From a virus, in IMG/VR virus record IMGVR_UViG_3300031669_000118, positions 1 to 35,848 of that record: a stretch of DNA of 35,848 nucleotides; one strand, given 5' to 3'. The position numbers and the translations under genes were made by a program. How positions within the stretch are numbered: position 1 is the first letter of the stretch; each line of letters begins with the position of its first letter. This document shows, piece by piece, positions 2,510-22,004 of this stretch. The notes below the pieces were generated by a model, which saw only the letters and a list, made by a program, of their open reading frames with translations, made no database searches and was not told where the DNA came from.

Positions 2510-3340
2510 TTAGTCGTCAAATATGGTCCGTGTCCATTGTCCGTCGCGCTTGACGGAAAGGTGACAACGGCAATTCCCGCGACAAGTGACTTGCCCCGCG
2601 GGGACGGTCTTCAGGGTCCGCCAGCCGCCAGGGTATTCGCCCGCCAGGTCGGGGCAACCGAAGAAGCCTGGGGAAGCCTGGCAATGAACGGCCCGCGGGT
2701 CCAGGTTCCACTTGACGGGTTCGGGGTCAAGTCCCTGGGAAGCCCGTTCGTCTTCGCGGACTTCGCCGACGGTCCGTTGTGTTTCAAATAGGGCGACCCA
2801 ATATCCGCCCGCGTATTGGGCGGGGGCCGCGCGGCTTGCGGCCGTCGCGTTCTTGATTGCCAGGGCGACGCCCTTTTGTTGTTCAACGGCCAGGCCGCCA
2901 ATGACAAGTCCAGGGACGGCGGCGGCCAGGGCCAGGGAAAGCTTTTCGTGAATATGCGGGACCAGGTTTTCGCGGACCAGGGCGACGTTTTCGGCCGCCA
3001 GGCGTTCGGCTTTCGCGCGGACCTGGGGAAGTTCGGAACGGGTTCCCGCGACCGTCTTGACCGCGCCTTCGACGCCCTTCGTCATAACTTCGACCAGGCG
3101 TTCTTCCAGCTTCGGAATTTGACTGTCAAGGTATGTCGAAAGTTCGGGAAGCGTCGCCCCGTTCTTCGCCCTGGTTGCCAGGTCACGCTTCAGCGCGGCC
3201 GACCAGGTATCGAAGACGGATACAATCTTCCGTTGTTGGCGGTTGGTCTTTTCTTCCCAGGTCCCCGACCCTATTCGTTGCTTTTGACCAGCCTTCGGTC
3301 GGGCCTTGAATGCGTGTCTATGCTTTGTCTGGACGTTCAT
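2510..3340 (-). CDS. Minor head protein (SPP1 gp7/Mu F-like)
   Basis: A 276-residue head-morphogenesis protein. The N-terminal half is helical and charged. The C-terminal 90 residues have the family signature: WNLDPRAVHC, then a Cys/Gly-rich stretch with GWRTLKTVPAGQVTCRGNCRCHLSV, matching the CRCxxxx ending of the SPP1 gp7/Mu F domain. Such proteins sit inside or at the portal vertex and help DNA delivery or head assembly. The start overlaps the end of the portal gene by 4 bases (ATGA), the normal portal-gp7 arrangement. Confidence 0.85.
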   Translation of the reverse strand: MNVQTKHRHAFKARPKAGQKQRIGSGTWEEKTNRQQRKIVSVFDTWSAALKRDLATRAKNGATLPELSTYLDSQIPKLEERLVEVMTKGVEGAVKTVAGTRSELPQVRAKAERLAAENVALVRENLVPHIHEKLSLALAAAVPGLVIGGLAVEQQKGVALAIKNATAASRAAPAQYAGGYWVALFETQRTVGEVREDERASQGLDPEPVKWNLDPRAVHCQASPGFFGCPDLAGEYPGGWRTLKTVPAGQVTCRGNCRCHLSVKRDGQWTRTIFDD

Positions 3341-4830
3341 TTGACCCCCGCTTCCAGGCCAGCGACGGAACCTTCCAGGACTTTCAACCGTCGGGCCGTG
3401 TCGCTATTGTCGGCGGGGGCGGCGTTCTTCGCCAGGGCCCCGACCTTGTCGGTCAAGGCGTCAACCTTTCCAGGAAGGTCGAATATCCCGCCCAGGGGCG
3501 GGGCTTCAACGTCCCGCGGAACCCCGCGTTCGTCTTCAGGAAGTTCGGGAAGGTCCGCCAGGCTTCGGATATGGTCTTCGTCCAGGTCGGTCGGGGTCAA
3601 TAGCTTCGCCCCGATTGCCGTATTCATAAAGTTGACCAGGGCGACCAGGTCAACGCGGCCTGGTTTCTCCCATACGATTGTCGGGTATCCCGATATATTC
3701 GGCCACTGGTTGAACTTGAAAAGATACGGGACAAGTTGTTGGTTCCAGGTTTCAAGAAGGTATCGCTGGACCGCTTCAAGGGCCAGGGCGAAGAAGTCAT
3801 GCGACCCTTTGACAAGGGCCTGGGTCCCGACGTTCCCCATTCCCAGGATAAGGAATTGGGAAAAGAAACGCATTAGCATAATTTTATGCCAGCGGTCAAT
3901 TACGACGTTCGTGTCGTATATCTTCGACCCGCCAGCATAGGCGCGAATGTCCACGCCTTCGGGTTCGATAAGGTAAACTTCTTCGTCCTTCCGAAGTCCC
4001 TTCAGGGCGGCCTTCAGCGTGACAATGTCGTTGTCTTCATATCCGCCTTCTTTTAGCTTCGCGACGGGCATTCCGCCGACGTCCCTTTCAATGCCGATAC
4101 CTTCCAGGTCTTCCAGGTTGCGGGCGAACTTATAAGGCCGATACAAGGCCCGAAGAAGGGACTTGCCTTGCGGGTTCCCCTTCCTTCCGCGGAATTTGAA
4201 ATGAAGACATTTCGATATTGGAATGGTAAACGTTCCGCCCGAATTCGGGTCCAGTTGAACGAAGGCGTCCAGCTTGTCCCGTTCGGCTTCGTCGTATTCC
4301 CAACGGTCAAGACTTTCCTGGCCGCGTGGGTCAATGTTACGAAGCCACAATCGGCCGTCGGCCCGTTTGTCCAGGACCAGTTCGCCCAGGGCGAACCCGA
4401 AGTCCAGGCTTTCCAGGGCGTCTTCAACGTGTGAATTCCACGTTTGCCCGTCCATATTGTTCATACAGTCCCAAAGCCATTCCGCGGCGGCGGCGTCATT
4501 GGGGGACCCGCCAGGGGACGGTTGAACGTCGAAGGTCGCGGCCTGAAGGGGAAGCTTGATTGCGTCCAGTTGGGCCCCGATAATAGGGTCGTCCCTCATT
4601 TCCAGGTATAGCTTGACTTCGCTGGACCATGACTTCAGGGCGTTCAGGTATTCTTCCCGAATACGGCCGCCCATGTGTTTCAAGCCCGTGGTTCCGATTA
4701 TGGTCCGAAACTTTTCAGTCCCGACGTCTTGATGATTATGGGAACGCCGCCCTTCAACCTGGCGGCGTTGTGAACGTTTTGAATTCGGGTCGGGCGGGGT
4801 ATATCCTGGCCGCTTGCTTTCAGTAACCAT
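3337..4830 (-). CDS. Portal protein (Mu gp29/DUF935-like)
   Basis: A 497-residue portal protein, the ring at the vertex through which DNA is packaged. Recognisable portal features are the MRDDPIIGAQLDAIKLPL segment (about 78-95), the WNSHVEDALESLDFGFALGEL region (about 130-150), and KFRGRKGNPQGKSLLRALYRPYKF (about 210-235), all typical of the DUF935 portal type. The C-terminus ends in a coiled coil (VDALTDKVGALAKN). Length and position, after large terminase and before gp7-like, agree. A promoter with an overlapping palindrome lies directly upstream (4870-4906). Confidence 0.88.
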   Translation of the reverse strand: MVTESKRPGYTPPDPNSKRSQRRQVEGRRSHNHQDVGTEKFRTIIGTTGLKHMGGRIREEYLNALKSWSSEVKLYLEMRDDPIIGAQLDAIKLPLQAATFDVQPSPGGSPNDAAAAEWLWDCMNNMDGQTWNSHVEDALESLDFGFALGELVLDKRADGRLWLRNIDPRGQESLDRWEYDEAERDKLDAFVQLDPNSGGTFTIPISKCLHFKFRGRKGNPQGKSLLRALYRPYKFARNLEDLEGIGIERDVGGMPVAKLKEGGYEDNDIVTLKAALKGLRKDEEVYLIEPEGVDIRAYAGGSKIYDTNVVIDRWHKIMLMRFFSQFLILGMGNVGTQALVKGSHDFFALALEAVQRYLLETWNQQLVPYLFKFNQWPNISGYPTIVWEKPGRVDLVALVNFMNTAIGAKLLTPTDLDEDHIRSLADLPELPEDERGVPRDVEAPPLGGIFDLPGKVDALTDKVGALAKNAAPADNSDTARRLKVLEGSVAGLEAGVK

Positions 4831-4869: not shown

Positions 4870-4898
4870 ATAATAAGCTGGTTTTCCGATAGTGTCAA
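4870..4898 (-). promoter_or_regulatory. Strong sigma70-like promoter upstream of portal
   Basis: On the minus strand TTGACA (4893-4898), a 17-base spacer, then TATTAT (4870-4875). It lies in the 100-base gap between terminase and portal and should drive the head genes. This is one of the best promoter matches in the genome. Its -35 box is part of a 15-base palindrome (4892-4906), suggesting control by the protein that binds that site. Confidence 0.75.
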
Positions 4899-4906
4899 GT
4901 TGACAC
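4892..4906. promoter_or_regulatory. Palindromic operator-like site over the -35 box
   Basis: GTGTCAA-G-TTGACAC is a perfect inverted repeat with 7-base arms. The same palindrome occurs inside the replication initiator gene at 13183-13197, with a variant at 13206-13220. Here it covers the -35 region of the portal promoter, so binding would block RNA polymerase. The regulator could be the phage initiator or the ribbon-helix-helix protein at 14460-14654; this is inference. Confidence 0.6.
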
Positions 4907-4933
4907 AATGGAAAGTCCACGAACGAACGTTCG

Positions 4934-6424
4934 TCAATCGCGCCAGCGACTTTCCTTCTTTTCGGACTGGACCCCGCCGCCAGTGTCCAGGTCCTTCAAC
5001 CGCGGCTTCAGGTATCGAAGGCCGTGGACCAGGACGTCAACAATGTCGTCATGGGCCCCGTTCGGAAAGTCCCCGACTTCCTTCAGGAAGTCCGCCAACC
5101 AGTCCGCGCGGAAGGGGACCAGGACTTGACCGACTTCCATAATGCCCGTGACGGTATGGGCCCGCGTGACCTTGTCGTCCAGGGCCTTGACCGCCCGAAG
5201 CGGAACGCCGCTGTCAACCTTCAGTTGTTGAATAAGGGATATTCCCGAAGACTTGTCTTCAATCAGGACGCGGTCGGGCTTCCACTTGTCGAAGTTCGCC
5301 GTCGCCGCCCTGGTCAATTCGGGGAAGGTCAACCTGGCAACGTATAGGTCCAGAAGGAAGAATTGTTGGGGCTTCCGTCGGTATCCGATAGTCAAGCAAG
5401 CCGAACGGTCGTGTCGTTGCTTTTCCTTGTGGGCCGTGTCCCATATCTGAATAACGCGGGACCAGGACCGCGGTTCGTTCGGGTCGTATGACTTGAACCA
5501 GGCCGTCTTGATAATGCCGCCGCCTTCAGGTTGCGGCTTCCCGCGGAATTGGCTTGTCCACCAAAAGGGCCCCGACGAAATACGAAGCTTCTTCAGGGCC
5601 AGGTCGTCGTATCGTTCGGGCCAAAGGGCTTCCCCTGGTTTCCGTCCCAGGACGTCCCCTTCTTCGGCCAGGGCGGGAAGGTTGATTGCTTCCCAGGGGT
5701 CGGGTTCAACGTCCACTTCCAGGGACCGTTCCGCTTCTTCGGGGTCCTGGGGCGGGTCCCCCATGAGTGCCCCCGCCAGGTCTTGTTCATGCCAGCGCGT
5801 CATTATGACGATTATCGAACCGCCTGGGGCAAGCCTGGTCCTTGCGACGGAACGATACCAGTTCCAGTTCCGCCGACGATACACGGGCGAAAGGGCTTCG
5901 GCGTCGTTCTTGATAGGGTCGTCAATGATAATCAGGTCGAAGCCGCGGCCAGTGAAGGGTCCGCCGATACCAGCGACGAACATTCCCCCGCCGTATCCCC
6001 GAAGGTTCCAGCGGCCCTTCGCTTTCGTGTCGGCCCGAAGTTGAAGTCCCAATTCGTCTTCGTTGTCCGCGATTGTTTCCTTCGCCTTGCCGCCCCATTC
6101 GGAAGCGTATCCCATTTCGTAAGACGCCAGGCCGACCTTCTTCCAGGGAAACTTCTTCAGGAACCAAACGGCCGTCCAGTGTGAAACAAGTTCGCTTTTC
6201 CCGTGTTGTGGGGGAACCGTTATCGCGAAGAAGCGTTGACCCAGGGCGACTTCGGATATTCGGTCGGACAAATATTCGACATGGCGCGGCCTGGTATATG
6301 ACCCGTGGGAAAGGTGTTCGGCCAGGGAAGCGGGCGTCCTGGACCAGTCGCGGGCGTCTTCGCGTTGACGAACTTCGACCGCGGCGGCGGCGTCCTTGAA
6401 GTGGTATGCCTGGCGTGTTATCAT
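4934..6424 (-). CDS. terL: Terminase large subunit
   Basis: A 496-residue DNA-packaging motor. The ATPase half shows Walker A PPQHGKSE (71-78), Walker B FDLIIIDDP (162-170) and MTRWHEQD downstream as the coupling region. The nuclease half has IWDTAH, the RVLIEDKSSG strand and HDDIVDVL acidic residues of the RNase H-like fold. I chose the start at 6424 because a G-run ribosome binding site precedes it and it forms an ATGA overlap with the previous gene. A TTG start at 6664 would add 80 residues of unlikely Arg-rich sequence. It precedes the portal gene. Confidence 0.95.
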   Translation of the reverse strand: MITRQAYHFKDAAAAVEVRQREDARDWSRTPASLAEHLSHGSYTRPRHVEYLSDRISEVALGQRFFAITVPPQHGKSELVSHWTAVWFLKKFPWKKVGLASYEMGYASEWGGKAKETIADNEDELGLQLRADTKAKGRWNLRGYGGGMFVAGIGGPFTGRGFDLIIIDDPIKNDAEALSPVYRRRNWNWYRSVARTRLAPGGSIIVIMTRWHEQDLAGALMGDPPQDPEEAERSLEVDVEPDPWEAINLPALAEEGDVLGRKPGEALWPERYDDLALKKLRISSGPFWWTSQFRGKPQPEGGGIIKTAWFKSYDPNEPRSWSRVIQIWDTAHKEKQRHDRSACLTIGYRRKPQQFFLLDLYVARLTFPELTRAATANFDKWKPDRVLIEDKSSGISLIQQLKVDSGVPLRAVKALDDKVTRAHTVTGIMEVGQVLVPFRADWLADFLKEVGDFPNGAHDDIVDVLVHGLRYLKPRLKDLDTGGGVQSEKKESRWRD

Positions 6425-11895: not shown

Positions 11896-12143
11896 TGCTG
11901 GCCCCCTTCTTCGGGTTCTGGTTCCTTGAAGTGACAACATTCTTGACGACATAAATAATGTCCGTCACTTTCACAATCCCAATCGCCAGGCTTTCGTTTC
12001 CTGGGTTCAAAGCCGTCACATTTGGCGTCGGCGTCCCGAATTGTGGGGATTCCGTCGGGAATAGGACCAGGGGTTGCTATCCGCCGCCAGGCGAATCGAA
12101 TGACGGCTTTCCAAAGTCCTTCGGTTGATATGATAATTTTCAT
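11892..12143 (-). CDS. Small Cys-rich hypothetical protein
   Basis: An 83-residue protein with a beta-rich N-terminus (MKIIISTEGLWKAVIRFAWRR) and a C-terminal half holding C42, C57, C65, C69 and C70 with nearby His, consistent with zinc binding. It has a strong AAGGGGGCG ribosome binding site and an ATGA overlap with both neighbours, the DnaC-like and RuvC-like genes. Function unknown. Confidence 0.6.
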   Translation of the reverse strand: MKIIISTEGLWKAVIRFAWRRIATPGPIPDGIPTIRDADAKCDGFEPRKRKPGDWDCESDGHYLCRQECCHFKEPEPEEGGQQ

Positions 12144-12730
12144 TCCTTCGCCCCCTTCCCGCGCCAGCTTTCGCCCGTGATAACGGCCGACGCGCCTTCC
12201 TTGACGCGGTCCAGGATACGTTCGGACTGGTCCGCCAGCTTGTTCGCGGTTATGACCAGGGGAAGGCGTTCGCGGTATCGGTAGTCAACCAGGGCGTCCA
12301 GTTGGGCGTCCCGCCAGGCCGTTCGATTGTGGGCCCCCAGGTCGTCCAGGACAACCAGGTCGGCTTCCTTCAGGCGGGACCAGAAGCGGCCGTATTCCTT
12401 GCCGTCTTCCAGCTTCGATTGAAGGTCGTTCAATAGTTCTTCGGCCTGGTAGTATATGACGCGTTCCCCGCATTCCAGGAAGGCCCAGGCGATAGCATAC
12501 GCCAGGGTCGTCTTCCCGACGCCTGGAATTCCTATCAAAAGGAAAAGCGGCGGGTTGACTTTGTCTTCCAGGAAGGACTTGACCACGGCGAAGGCTTTTC
12601 GGTTTCCTTCGGTCTTTTCCAGGTCCCCCAGGGTCCGCGACCTGGTATGGCGCGGGACCCTGGAAGTGTGGACCCGTTCTTCAATTCGTTGTTTCCAGGC
12701 TTGTTCTTGACGTTCTTCGGGCGTTTGCAT
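12140..12730 (-). CDS. dnaC: DnaC/IstB-like helicase loader ATPase
   Basis: A 196-residue AAA+ ATPase. Walker A is GIPGVGKTT (67-75), Walker B is LVVLDDLG (125-132), and a sensor-like LPLVITANK strand follows. The N-terminal 45 residues are charged and helical, the usual helicase- or initiator-binding part. Such proteins load the host replicative helicase at the phage origin. It directly follows the initiator gene, a common initiator-loader pair. No helicase or polymerase gene was found, so the host machinery must be recruited. Confidence 0.88.
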   Translation of the reverse strand: MQTPEERQEQAWKQRIEERVHTSRVPRHTRSRTLGDLEKTEGNRKAFAVVKSFLEDKVNPPLFLLIGIPGVGKTTLAYAIAWAFLECGERVIYYQAEELLNDLQSKLEDGKEYGRFWSRLKEADLVVLDDLGAHNRTAWRDAQLDALVDYRYRERLPLVITANKLADQSERILDRVKEGASAVITGESWRGKGAKE

Positions 12731-13630
12731 TTACAGTCCCCTTTCCTTTGCCTGGGCGACCAGGTCGTCTTCGGTTGGAAGAAGGGAAGCCTGGCGGCCG
12801 AATATCGGTCGGGTCGGTTTCCCAATGTCTTCATTGACATATACCATTGACACGAAGACGGGCTTCCCATTCATGCCGCGGGACGAACATTTCGCTTCCC
12901 AGGCGGATATTATTTCGGTTTCAGAATAACCCCTTTGAAGCATTCGCGCAATCGCTTTCGCTTCTTTTCCGTGGTTCGGAATAGGGTCCTTGTCCGTGAT
13001 TGTCGGATACCCGAAGAACTTTTGCATTCCTTCAAAGTAAACTGAATAATCCCTTTTCACAAGGGCGCGGGGTTTCTTCGAAGAAGAAGCCCCTTTGTTC
13101 TTCTCTGTGTTACTCTCTGAAGGTTGTTTCTGGTTACTCTCTGGTAACGGGTTTTCGTGCGTAGCTTGTGCCTGGCCCGAAGGTGTCAACTTGACACTAT
13201 GCAAAGGGTCAACTTGACCCAATGGAACGGGCCATTCTGACACAATGGACGGTTCACTTTGACACAATAGGGAAAGCCGTTCGTGGTTGACCCGATACCA
13301 TTTCGTTCGGTCAATGTTCGACTTATTGAAGCAACCAGACACAAGGAAGCCCGCCTTTTCCAGACGCGCGAATATCCGCTTCAAAGTGGAAACGGACCAC
13401 AAGTTCGCGAATTGGTCGGACCAGGCGGCGAACGTGTTATACGTCCAGAAGAAGCCGTCTTGTTCGTTACGGTTGGCCCGCTGGTTCAATATAACCCAAT
13501 AGTGGACTTGTTGAAGGACCAGGGCTTCGTCAATGCCGTTGAACCCTGGGACCCCCTTCAGTAACCGCGCCAGTTCGGGAATAAGGACCAGCGGCCGTTC
13601 GTCGTATAGTAAGCGACTTTCGGCCCCCAT
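12731..13630 (-). CDS. Replication initiator / replisome organizer
   Basis: A 299-residue protein with a winged-helix-like N-terminus: ALVLQQVHYWVILNQ (helix), FFWTYNTFAAWSDQF and SVSTLKRIFARLEKAGFLV (recognition helix and wing), the pattern of phage replisome organizers. A Gln/Asn/Ser/Lys-rich linker (about 150-195) carries iteron-like DNA repeats just upstream (13183-13265). The C-terminal part (YSETEIISAWEAKCSSRG) is a DnaD-like helical region. By analogy with lambda O, the origin may lie in its own gene. The start has AAGGGGGAAT. The linker also holds five of the genome's rare CTC sites. Confidence 0.75.
   Translation of the reverse strand: MGAESRLLYDERPLVLIPELARLLKGVPGFNGIDEALVLQQVHYWVILNQRANRNEQDGFFWTYNTFAAWSDQFANLWSVSTLKRIFARLEKAGFLVSGCFNKSNIDRTKWYRVNHERLSLLCQSEPSIVSEWPVPLGQVDPLHSVKLTPSGQAQATHENPLPESNQKQPSESNTEKNKGASSSKKPRALVKRDYSVYFEGMQKFFGYPTITDKDPIPNHGKEAKAIARMLQRGYSETEIISAWEAKCSSRGMNGKPVFVSMVYVNEDIGKPTRPIFGRQASLLPTEDDLVAQAKERGL
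13183..13265. repeat. Iteron-like repeats, candidate replication origin
   Basis: Four copies of a TTGACAC-type unit lie inside the initiator gene, with right half-sites ending at 13197, 13220, 13243 and 13265, i.e. spaced 23, 23 and 22 bases, about two helical turns. The first two are near-perfect palindromes (GTGTCAACTTGACAC and GGGTCAACTTGACCC); the last two keep only the half-site plus ACAATGG. Regular spacing within an initiator gene is the layout of lambda-type origins. Origin function is inferred. Confidence 0.65.
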
Positions 13631-14459: not shown

Positions 14460-14654
14460 TTACGGGTCCCGTCGGATAGTGTCGCCGTTGAAGTAGCGTG
14501 TGAAGTGGTTATTGATAAAAGCCGCCTTGCTTTCGAAGCCCAGGCGTTCGGCTTCCTGGCCCAATTGTTCGTCCACGCCGACCAGGACGCGCCAGTTCCG
14601 ATTGACTTTCCCAGGGGCGACTTTGCCCTTCTTGTGTTCGGTCTTGTTTACCAT
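14460..14654 (-). CDS. Ribbon-helix-helix-like DNA-binding protein
   Basis: A 64-residue protein with a basic N-terminus, then WRVLVGVDEQLGQEAERLGFESKAAFINNHF, whose strand-helix-turn-helix pattern matches Arc/CopG ribbon-helix-helix proteins. It is the first gene after a strong promoter (14680-14709). Such proteins bind short palindromes; the GTGTCAAGTTGACAC sites at 4892 and 13183 are candidate targets. That link is inference. Confidence 0.55.
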   Translation of the reverse strand: MVNKTEHKKGKVAPGKVNRNWRVLVGVDEQLGQEAERLGFESKAAFINNHFTRYFNGDTIRRDP

Positions 14655-14679: not shown

Positions 14680-14709
14680 ATTGTAAAGCCCGCGGCTTGC
14701 CTATGTCAA
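14680..14709 (-). promoter_or_regulatory. Sigma70-like promoter before the replication genes
   Basis: On the minus strand TTGACA (14704-14709), an 18-base spacer and TACAAT (14680-14685). It lies in the 46-base gap upstream of the ribbon-helix-helix-like gene and should drive the replication and terminase genes. Both boxes are near consensus. Confidence 0.7.
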
Positions 14710-18258: not shown

Positions 18259-18288
18259 ATTGTATCGCCGTTGTAATGCCCTTGTCAA
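18259..18288 (-). promoter_or_regulatory. Sigma70-like early promoter
   Basis: On the minus strand TTGACA (18283-18288), an 18-base spacer and TACAAT (18259-18264). The start of the spacer, GGGCATTACA, is shared with the promoter at 21976-22004, so both may be controlled together. It should drive the zinc-finger and coiled-coil genes toward 14.7 kb. Confidence 0.7.
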
Positions 18289-21975: not shown

Positions 21976-22004
21976 ATGATACTGCTATGTAATGCCCGTG
22001 TCAA
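21976..22004 (-). promoter_or_regulatory. Leftward early promoter
   Basis: On the minus strand TTGACA (21999-22004), a 17-base spacer starting CGGGCATTACA, and TATCAT (21976-21981). It heads the whole leftward early operon and lies beside the divergent plus-strand gene. The spacer sequence shared with the promoter at 18259-18288 suggests a common regulator. Confidence 0.75.

Follow-up and report, generated by a model that had tools for sequence, protein, structure and literature searches.

An origin repeat on the head-gene promoter of a virus and its relatives: a probable link between genome replication and head-gene expression

The virus analysed here has, on the promoter of its head genes, a site that matches the repeats (iterons) of its predicted replication origin over their whole length. 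Because this copy lies on the head promoter and is kept in place by relatives, we consider that one protein probably controls both the copying of the DNA and the expression of the head genes. In phages with the kind of initiator found here, which we call type A, the likeliest reader of the site is the initiator, as a predicted repressor. The window, by which we mean the whole stretch of DNA that was analysed, is a complete virus record of 35,848 bases, and the portal region within it is laid out as follows.

4887-4911, minus strand: orphan iteron and putative portal operator, CCATTGTGTCAACTTGACACTATCG, core 4892-4906 (34.1 bits, genome rank 1).
4870-4898, minus strand: portal promoter, TTGACA-17-TATTAT (-35 at 4893-4898, -10 at 4870-4875).
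3337-4830, minus strand: portal protein, the first head-operon gene behind the operator (phrog_113, 6.9e-66; Portal_Mu, 7.8e-36).
4934-6424, minus strand: terminase large subunit, upstream of the operator (phrog_38, 8.8e-94; Terminase_6C).

We infer from the genes behind it that the portal promoter is a late promoter. The origin repeats are found inside the initiator gene, which adjoins that of a helicase loader; the matrix used for scoring the units was derived from other genomes.

12731-13630, minus strand: replication initiator, 299 aa (phrog_6493, DnaD-like, 6e-30; O-like replication initiation families).
13178-13202, minus strand: iteron unit 1, GCATAGTGTCAAGTTGACACCTTCG, core palindrome 13183-13197 (28.5 bits).
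13201-13225, minus strand: iteron unit 2, CCATTGGGTCAAGTTGACCCTTTGC (29.2 bits).
13224-13248, minus strand: iteron unit 3, CCATTGTGTCAGAATGGCCCGTTCC (21.4 bits).
13246-13270, minus strand: iteron unit 4, CTATTGTGTCAAAGTGAACCGTCCA (19.1 bits).
12140-12730, minus strand: DnaC-like helicase loader (phrog_50, 2.5e-38; IstB_IS21, 3.7e-16).

The array at 13178-13270 thus consists of four imperfect palindromes of 25 bp, spaced by 22, 23 and 23 bp, with the consensus CSATWGTGTCAASTTGACACWATSG. An initial annotation of this DNA had described four TTGACAC units at a spacing of 22-23 bp inside the initiator gene. Their number, spacing and location were borne out, but the exact heptamer is present only in unit 1, on both arms, and in unit 4 (13259), the corresponding heptamers being TTGACCC in unit 2 and CTGACAC in unit 3. 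The same array was present in relatives whose initiators are 87, 77 and 64% alike. The initiator itself consists of a winged-helix-like domain (type A) at the N-terminus, a linker for which the iterons code, and a C-terminal domain, C1. It also matched the O-like families phrog_678 and phrog_391, and no Pfam family, plasmid Rep domains included, was matched at a threshold of 0.001. The structure model of the protein was confident in parts only, and a fold search with it gave no matches below an E value of 0.001. The stretches flanking the array have a GC content of 0.52 and 0.515; a low-GC segment of 120 bp (0.425) starts at 13021, and the genome minimum is elsewhere. GC skew along the window did not point clearly to an origin; the main genes are on one strand. 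The initiator families matched, the phased repeats and the adjoining loader gene support the view that the array is an origin within the initiator gene, of the kind known for lambda O and SPP1 gp38.

How closely does the portal site resemble these repeats? It had been noticed earlier that the palindrome of the first iteron also covers the -35 box of the portal promoter, and this proved correct: the copy is exact and the -35 hexamer TTGACA lies inside the palindrome. When the whole record was searched for GTGTCAACTTGACAC with up to three mismatches, only three places were found, namely exact copies at 4892-4906 and 13183-13197 and a copy with two mismatches in the second iteron, at 13206-13220. 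The many similar palindromes elsewhere that had been named as a contrary outcome were therefore not found. Counted by strand, the matches numbered six, compared to 0.46 expected, and none of 100 shuffled sequences reached six. The likeness even exceeds the 15-bp palindrome originally claimed, as an 18-bp stretch (GTGTCAACTTGACACTAT) is shared without mismatch on one strand, and the outer arms of the portal site also fit the iteron consensus. In ten Markov genomes the iteron matrix reached a best score of 14.9 bits, compared to 34.1 bits for the portal site of the window. These results support the interpretation of the portal site as a full iteron, and no other position in the genome matches the iterons better.

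A leave-one-genome-out analysis, in which a matrix made only from the iterons of the other genomes was run over each whole genome, gave a similar picture. The portal site was the best of all positions in four type-A genomes (G000, G002, G003 and G007), above their own iterons, and the second best in the fifth, G006. Its scores in these five genomes were 28.6-34.1 bits, whereas random genomes reached at most 17.3. Since a matrix built from iterons alone ranks the portal site in this way, the sequences indicate that its likeness to the iterons is not a matter of chance. It could be argued that the half-site includes TTGACA, which is also the -35 consensus, so that the likeness would be no more than a -35 box plus coincidence and the palindrome would have no function. 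We find this very hard to credit in view of the scores just given; moreover, the left half-site and the outer arms, which lie outside any promoter element, are kept in 17 distinct sequences, and the left half-site is conserved across divergent relatives.

In these 17 sequences, which include portals that are only 68-72% alike, the site lies between terminase and portal; 24 portal relatives were fetched. In operator-bearing relatives the site lies on the -35 box, 17-18 bp from the -10, and the -10 boxes of the portal promoters vary (TAAACT, TAGAAT, TATTAT). In L015 the operator is present about 220 bp further upstream. The operator is missing in L029 and also in one clade (L016, L017, L020 and L021), in which a promoter of equal layout, TTGACT-17-TAAACT, has been kept. 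The palindrome is thus dispensable for the function of the promoter. This bears on the idea that the same protein is an activator of the portal promoter, which would turn on the head genes as the initiator accumulates. The variable -10 boxes make some help to the polymerase conceivable, but the site covers the -35 box, which is the classical position of a repressor, rather than lying upstream of it, and the clade without the site manages with the same promoter layout. We regard activation as improbable.

Distant relatives (terminase at most 59% alike) lacked the site in the 400 bp that follow terminase, several of their portals being further off. Other phages of the O/DnaD superfamily (Geobacillus NIIg9.7, Bacillus BhaS-171 and several contigs) had no orphan repeat above background in a control that used the putative repeats of each phage, some of whose arrays were barely above chance. 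When viral contigs were scanned for the operator, matches outside the group came only from phages without homologues of the tested genes. A longer palindrome, GGCAAAGTGTCAASTTGACACTTTGG, was observed in three unrelated phages (L199, L205 and L207). A search of bacterial genomes for hosts or prophages with both portal and initiator found none. Compensatory pairing across the operator arms, though conspicuous on inspection, was not significant (179 symmetric pairs vs a shuffle mean of 172.7, p 0.09), with only the outermost position standing out. Two further observations concern the DNA next to the operator. L023 and L024 have nearly identical portal genes and clearly different promoter and operator sequences upstream of them, pointing to recombination just upstream of the portal gene. 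Upstream of the portal gene in L030 (about 4000-4080) and at the end of L130, an inverted repeat, GGGTAGTGTATCA...TGATACACTACCC, adjoins the operator and looks like a small inserted element.

What, then, could the portal site do? On balance, we lean towards the explanation that the type-A initiator binds both the origin iterons and the orphan iteron and thereby represses the head-gene promoter. The initiator would bind the iterons in its own gene, upon which the origin opens, and it would also occupy the orphan iteron, very probably as a dimer that covers the whole palindrome. Since the site contains the -35 hexamer, such occupancy would exclude RNA polymerase from the head-gene promoter, and the head operon would be held down during early replication. 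The sites match, they are conserved and they overlap a conserved promoter; the binding of the initiator at the portal site and the repression of the head promoter are what we infer from this, and we consider the interpretation plausible for this phage. A more speculative step is that the initiator becomes titrated by newly replicated iterons, which would release the head genes. The complete scheme, in which the initiator represses the head operon directly, every replication round supplies further titrating iterons and copy number acts as a clock for late expression, seems to us rather doubtful. If titration did occur, late timing would be set by genome copy number and no dedicated late regulator would be needed. 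G007 is a special case, having further matches to the iteron matrix. One of them, an extra copy of the operator at L035 8948-8972 (G007 28783), covers the point where transcription starts for the operon of the initiator and a ribbon-helix-helix-like protein, suggesting autoregulation in that phage.

More questions are raised by relatives in which the initiator has been exchanged. The initiators of G004, G005 and G008 start with a different helix-turn-helix domain, HTH_36, which is unrelated to that of type A, and we call them type B. Their iterons are CGGTWTCC palindromes and occupy the position of the type-A array within the gene (the array of G008 is weak), so that in these three genomes the repeats have changed together with the N-terminal domain. 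The C-terminal part is either C1 or, in G006, G007 and G008, DnaA_N, and these three lack the DnaC-like loader. The initiators are thus mosaics of two unrelated N-terminal DNA-binding domains and two C-terminal domains. The C1 domains of G003, a type-A genome, and G004, a type-B genome, are 84.5% alike, which indicates that halves have been exchanged between the types at or near the origin. As the domain junction is the origin itself, a domain and its cognate iterons travel together.

Of the type-B genomes, G005 and G008 include the portal region. In both, the portal operator has been kept and is the one position that scores highly with the type-A matrix (27.9 and 26.7 bits). Neither genome yielded a homologue of the type-A domain, and their own iterons have no orphan copy at the portal gene. 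In the portal tree they stand in separate parts and are not sisters. It is chiefly this retention that speaks against the initiator being the sole reader of the site. The initial annotation had proposed that one protein could act at both the iterons and the portal promoter. The portal site as a full and conserved iteron agrees with that proposal; the initiator as its sole reader is less certain. Is the operator decaying in the swapped genomes? Their left half-sites score 12.4 and 10.7 bits, compared to 13.0-17.7 in all five type-A genomes, and a rank of about 1 in 21 is weak evidence that softens the counter-evidence. Perhaps lineages with type B may also regain type A through exchange, since C1 domains cross between the types. 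Such swapped-domain relatives are natural experiments able to decide which protein reads the portal site.

The same genomes raise the possibility that a third protein, encoded by phage or host, reads the operator whatever the type of initiator, the type-A origin sharing the motif because it evolved under that regulator or in competition with it. The operator has indeed outlived the loss of the type-A domain and its iterons in G005 and G008, and several small conserved early proteins would be available for the task. Two unrelated proteins with the same 25-bp specificity would be needed, however, the regulator would have a single site in the whole genome of G005 and of G008, and these genomes have some of the weakest left half-sites. 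We see a third reader as possible, if somewhat unlikely. One candidate is encoded close to the initiator.

14460-14654, minus strand: ribbon-helix-helix-like protein of 64 aa, candidate rival reader (low-confidence two-helix model).
14680-14709, minus strand: promoter of the 64-aa gene and initiator operon, with a tandem repeat in its spacer.

The gene is present in all nine genomes (G000-G008), and family searches with its product gave no match. The spacer of its promoter contains, with some variation across the nine genomes, two copies of GGCGNTAC 11 bp apart, and the iteron is absent from this promoter in the window. The protein had also been considered earlier as a reader of the portal site, but it is a poor candidate because the motif at its own promoter differs from the portal operator. 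Similar tandem repeats were seen between the -35 and -10 boxes of early promoters in G000-G008, in the window at 14680-14709, 18259-18288 and 21976-22004, all on the minus strand. Tandem repeats one helical turn apart suit ribbon-helix-helix proteins, and perhaps these form a second operator family, that of the 64-aa protein.

The timing of head-gene expression is often unexplained in phages without a known late activator, and work on SPP1 describes the circuitry behind late expression as a gap at present (PMC6316719). A conserved origin repeat on a head-gene promoter offers a specific link, open to testing, between the copying of the genome and the expression of late genes; in a limited literature search we came across no phage whose late promoter carries an origin repeat. 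The arrangement of the origin resembles that of lambda, where O binds palindromic iterons as dimers and, as in the window, the initiator gene contains four of these and has the helicase loader gene next to it (PMC5043065). In the sources consulted, an orphan iteron on a late promoter is not described for lambda, whereas it is present and conserved here, and the two initiators are related in sequence only through O-like profile families.

In SPP1, gp38 binds oriL inside gene 38 and also the distant oriR in the late region, and bound gp38 is proposed to stall replication forks (PMC6316719). The window resembles SPP1 in having an origin inside the initiator gene and a distant, in our case predicted, initiator site in the late region. 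Could the portal site therefore be a second replication site, a fork barrier or second origin like oriR, and no transcriptional operator? Its surroundings would suit this, as the region upstream of the portal gene is among the lowest-GC stretches. Yet oriR comprises arrayed direct repeats and an AT-rich region for unwinding, whereas 4887-4911 is a single unit without direct repeats, and its placement on a -35 box, 17-18 bp from the -10, would be superfluous for a fork barrier. We hold such a role to be quite improbable and prefer repression of the head promoter. A protein with a part in both processes is known from phi29, in which p6 activates the initiation of replication and takes part in the early-to-late switch (PMC10899789); p6, however, is a DNA-wrapping organizer of the genome, in contrast to the predicted iteron binder of the window. 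Plasmid initiators of the F RepE type read both origin repeats and an operator, so that one protein serves replication and repression (PMC13028717). These proteins have a Rep family domain, which was not matched by the initiator of the window, and in iteron plasmids the operator lies on the initiator's own promoter, a position occupied only in G007, whereas in the window it lies on the promoter of the portal gene.
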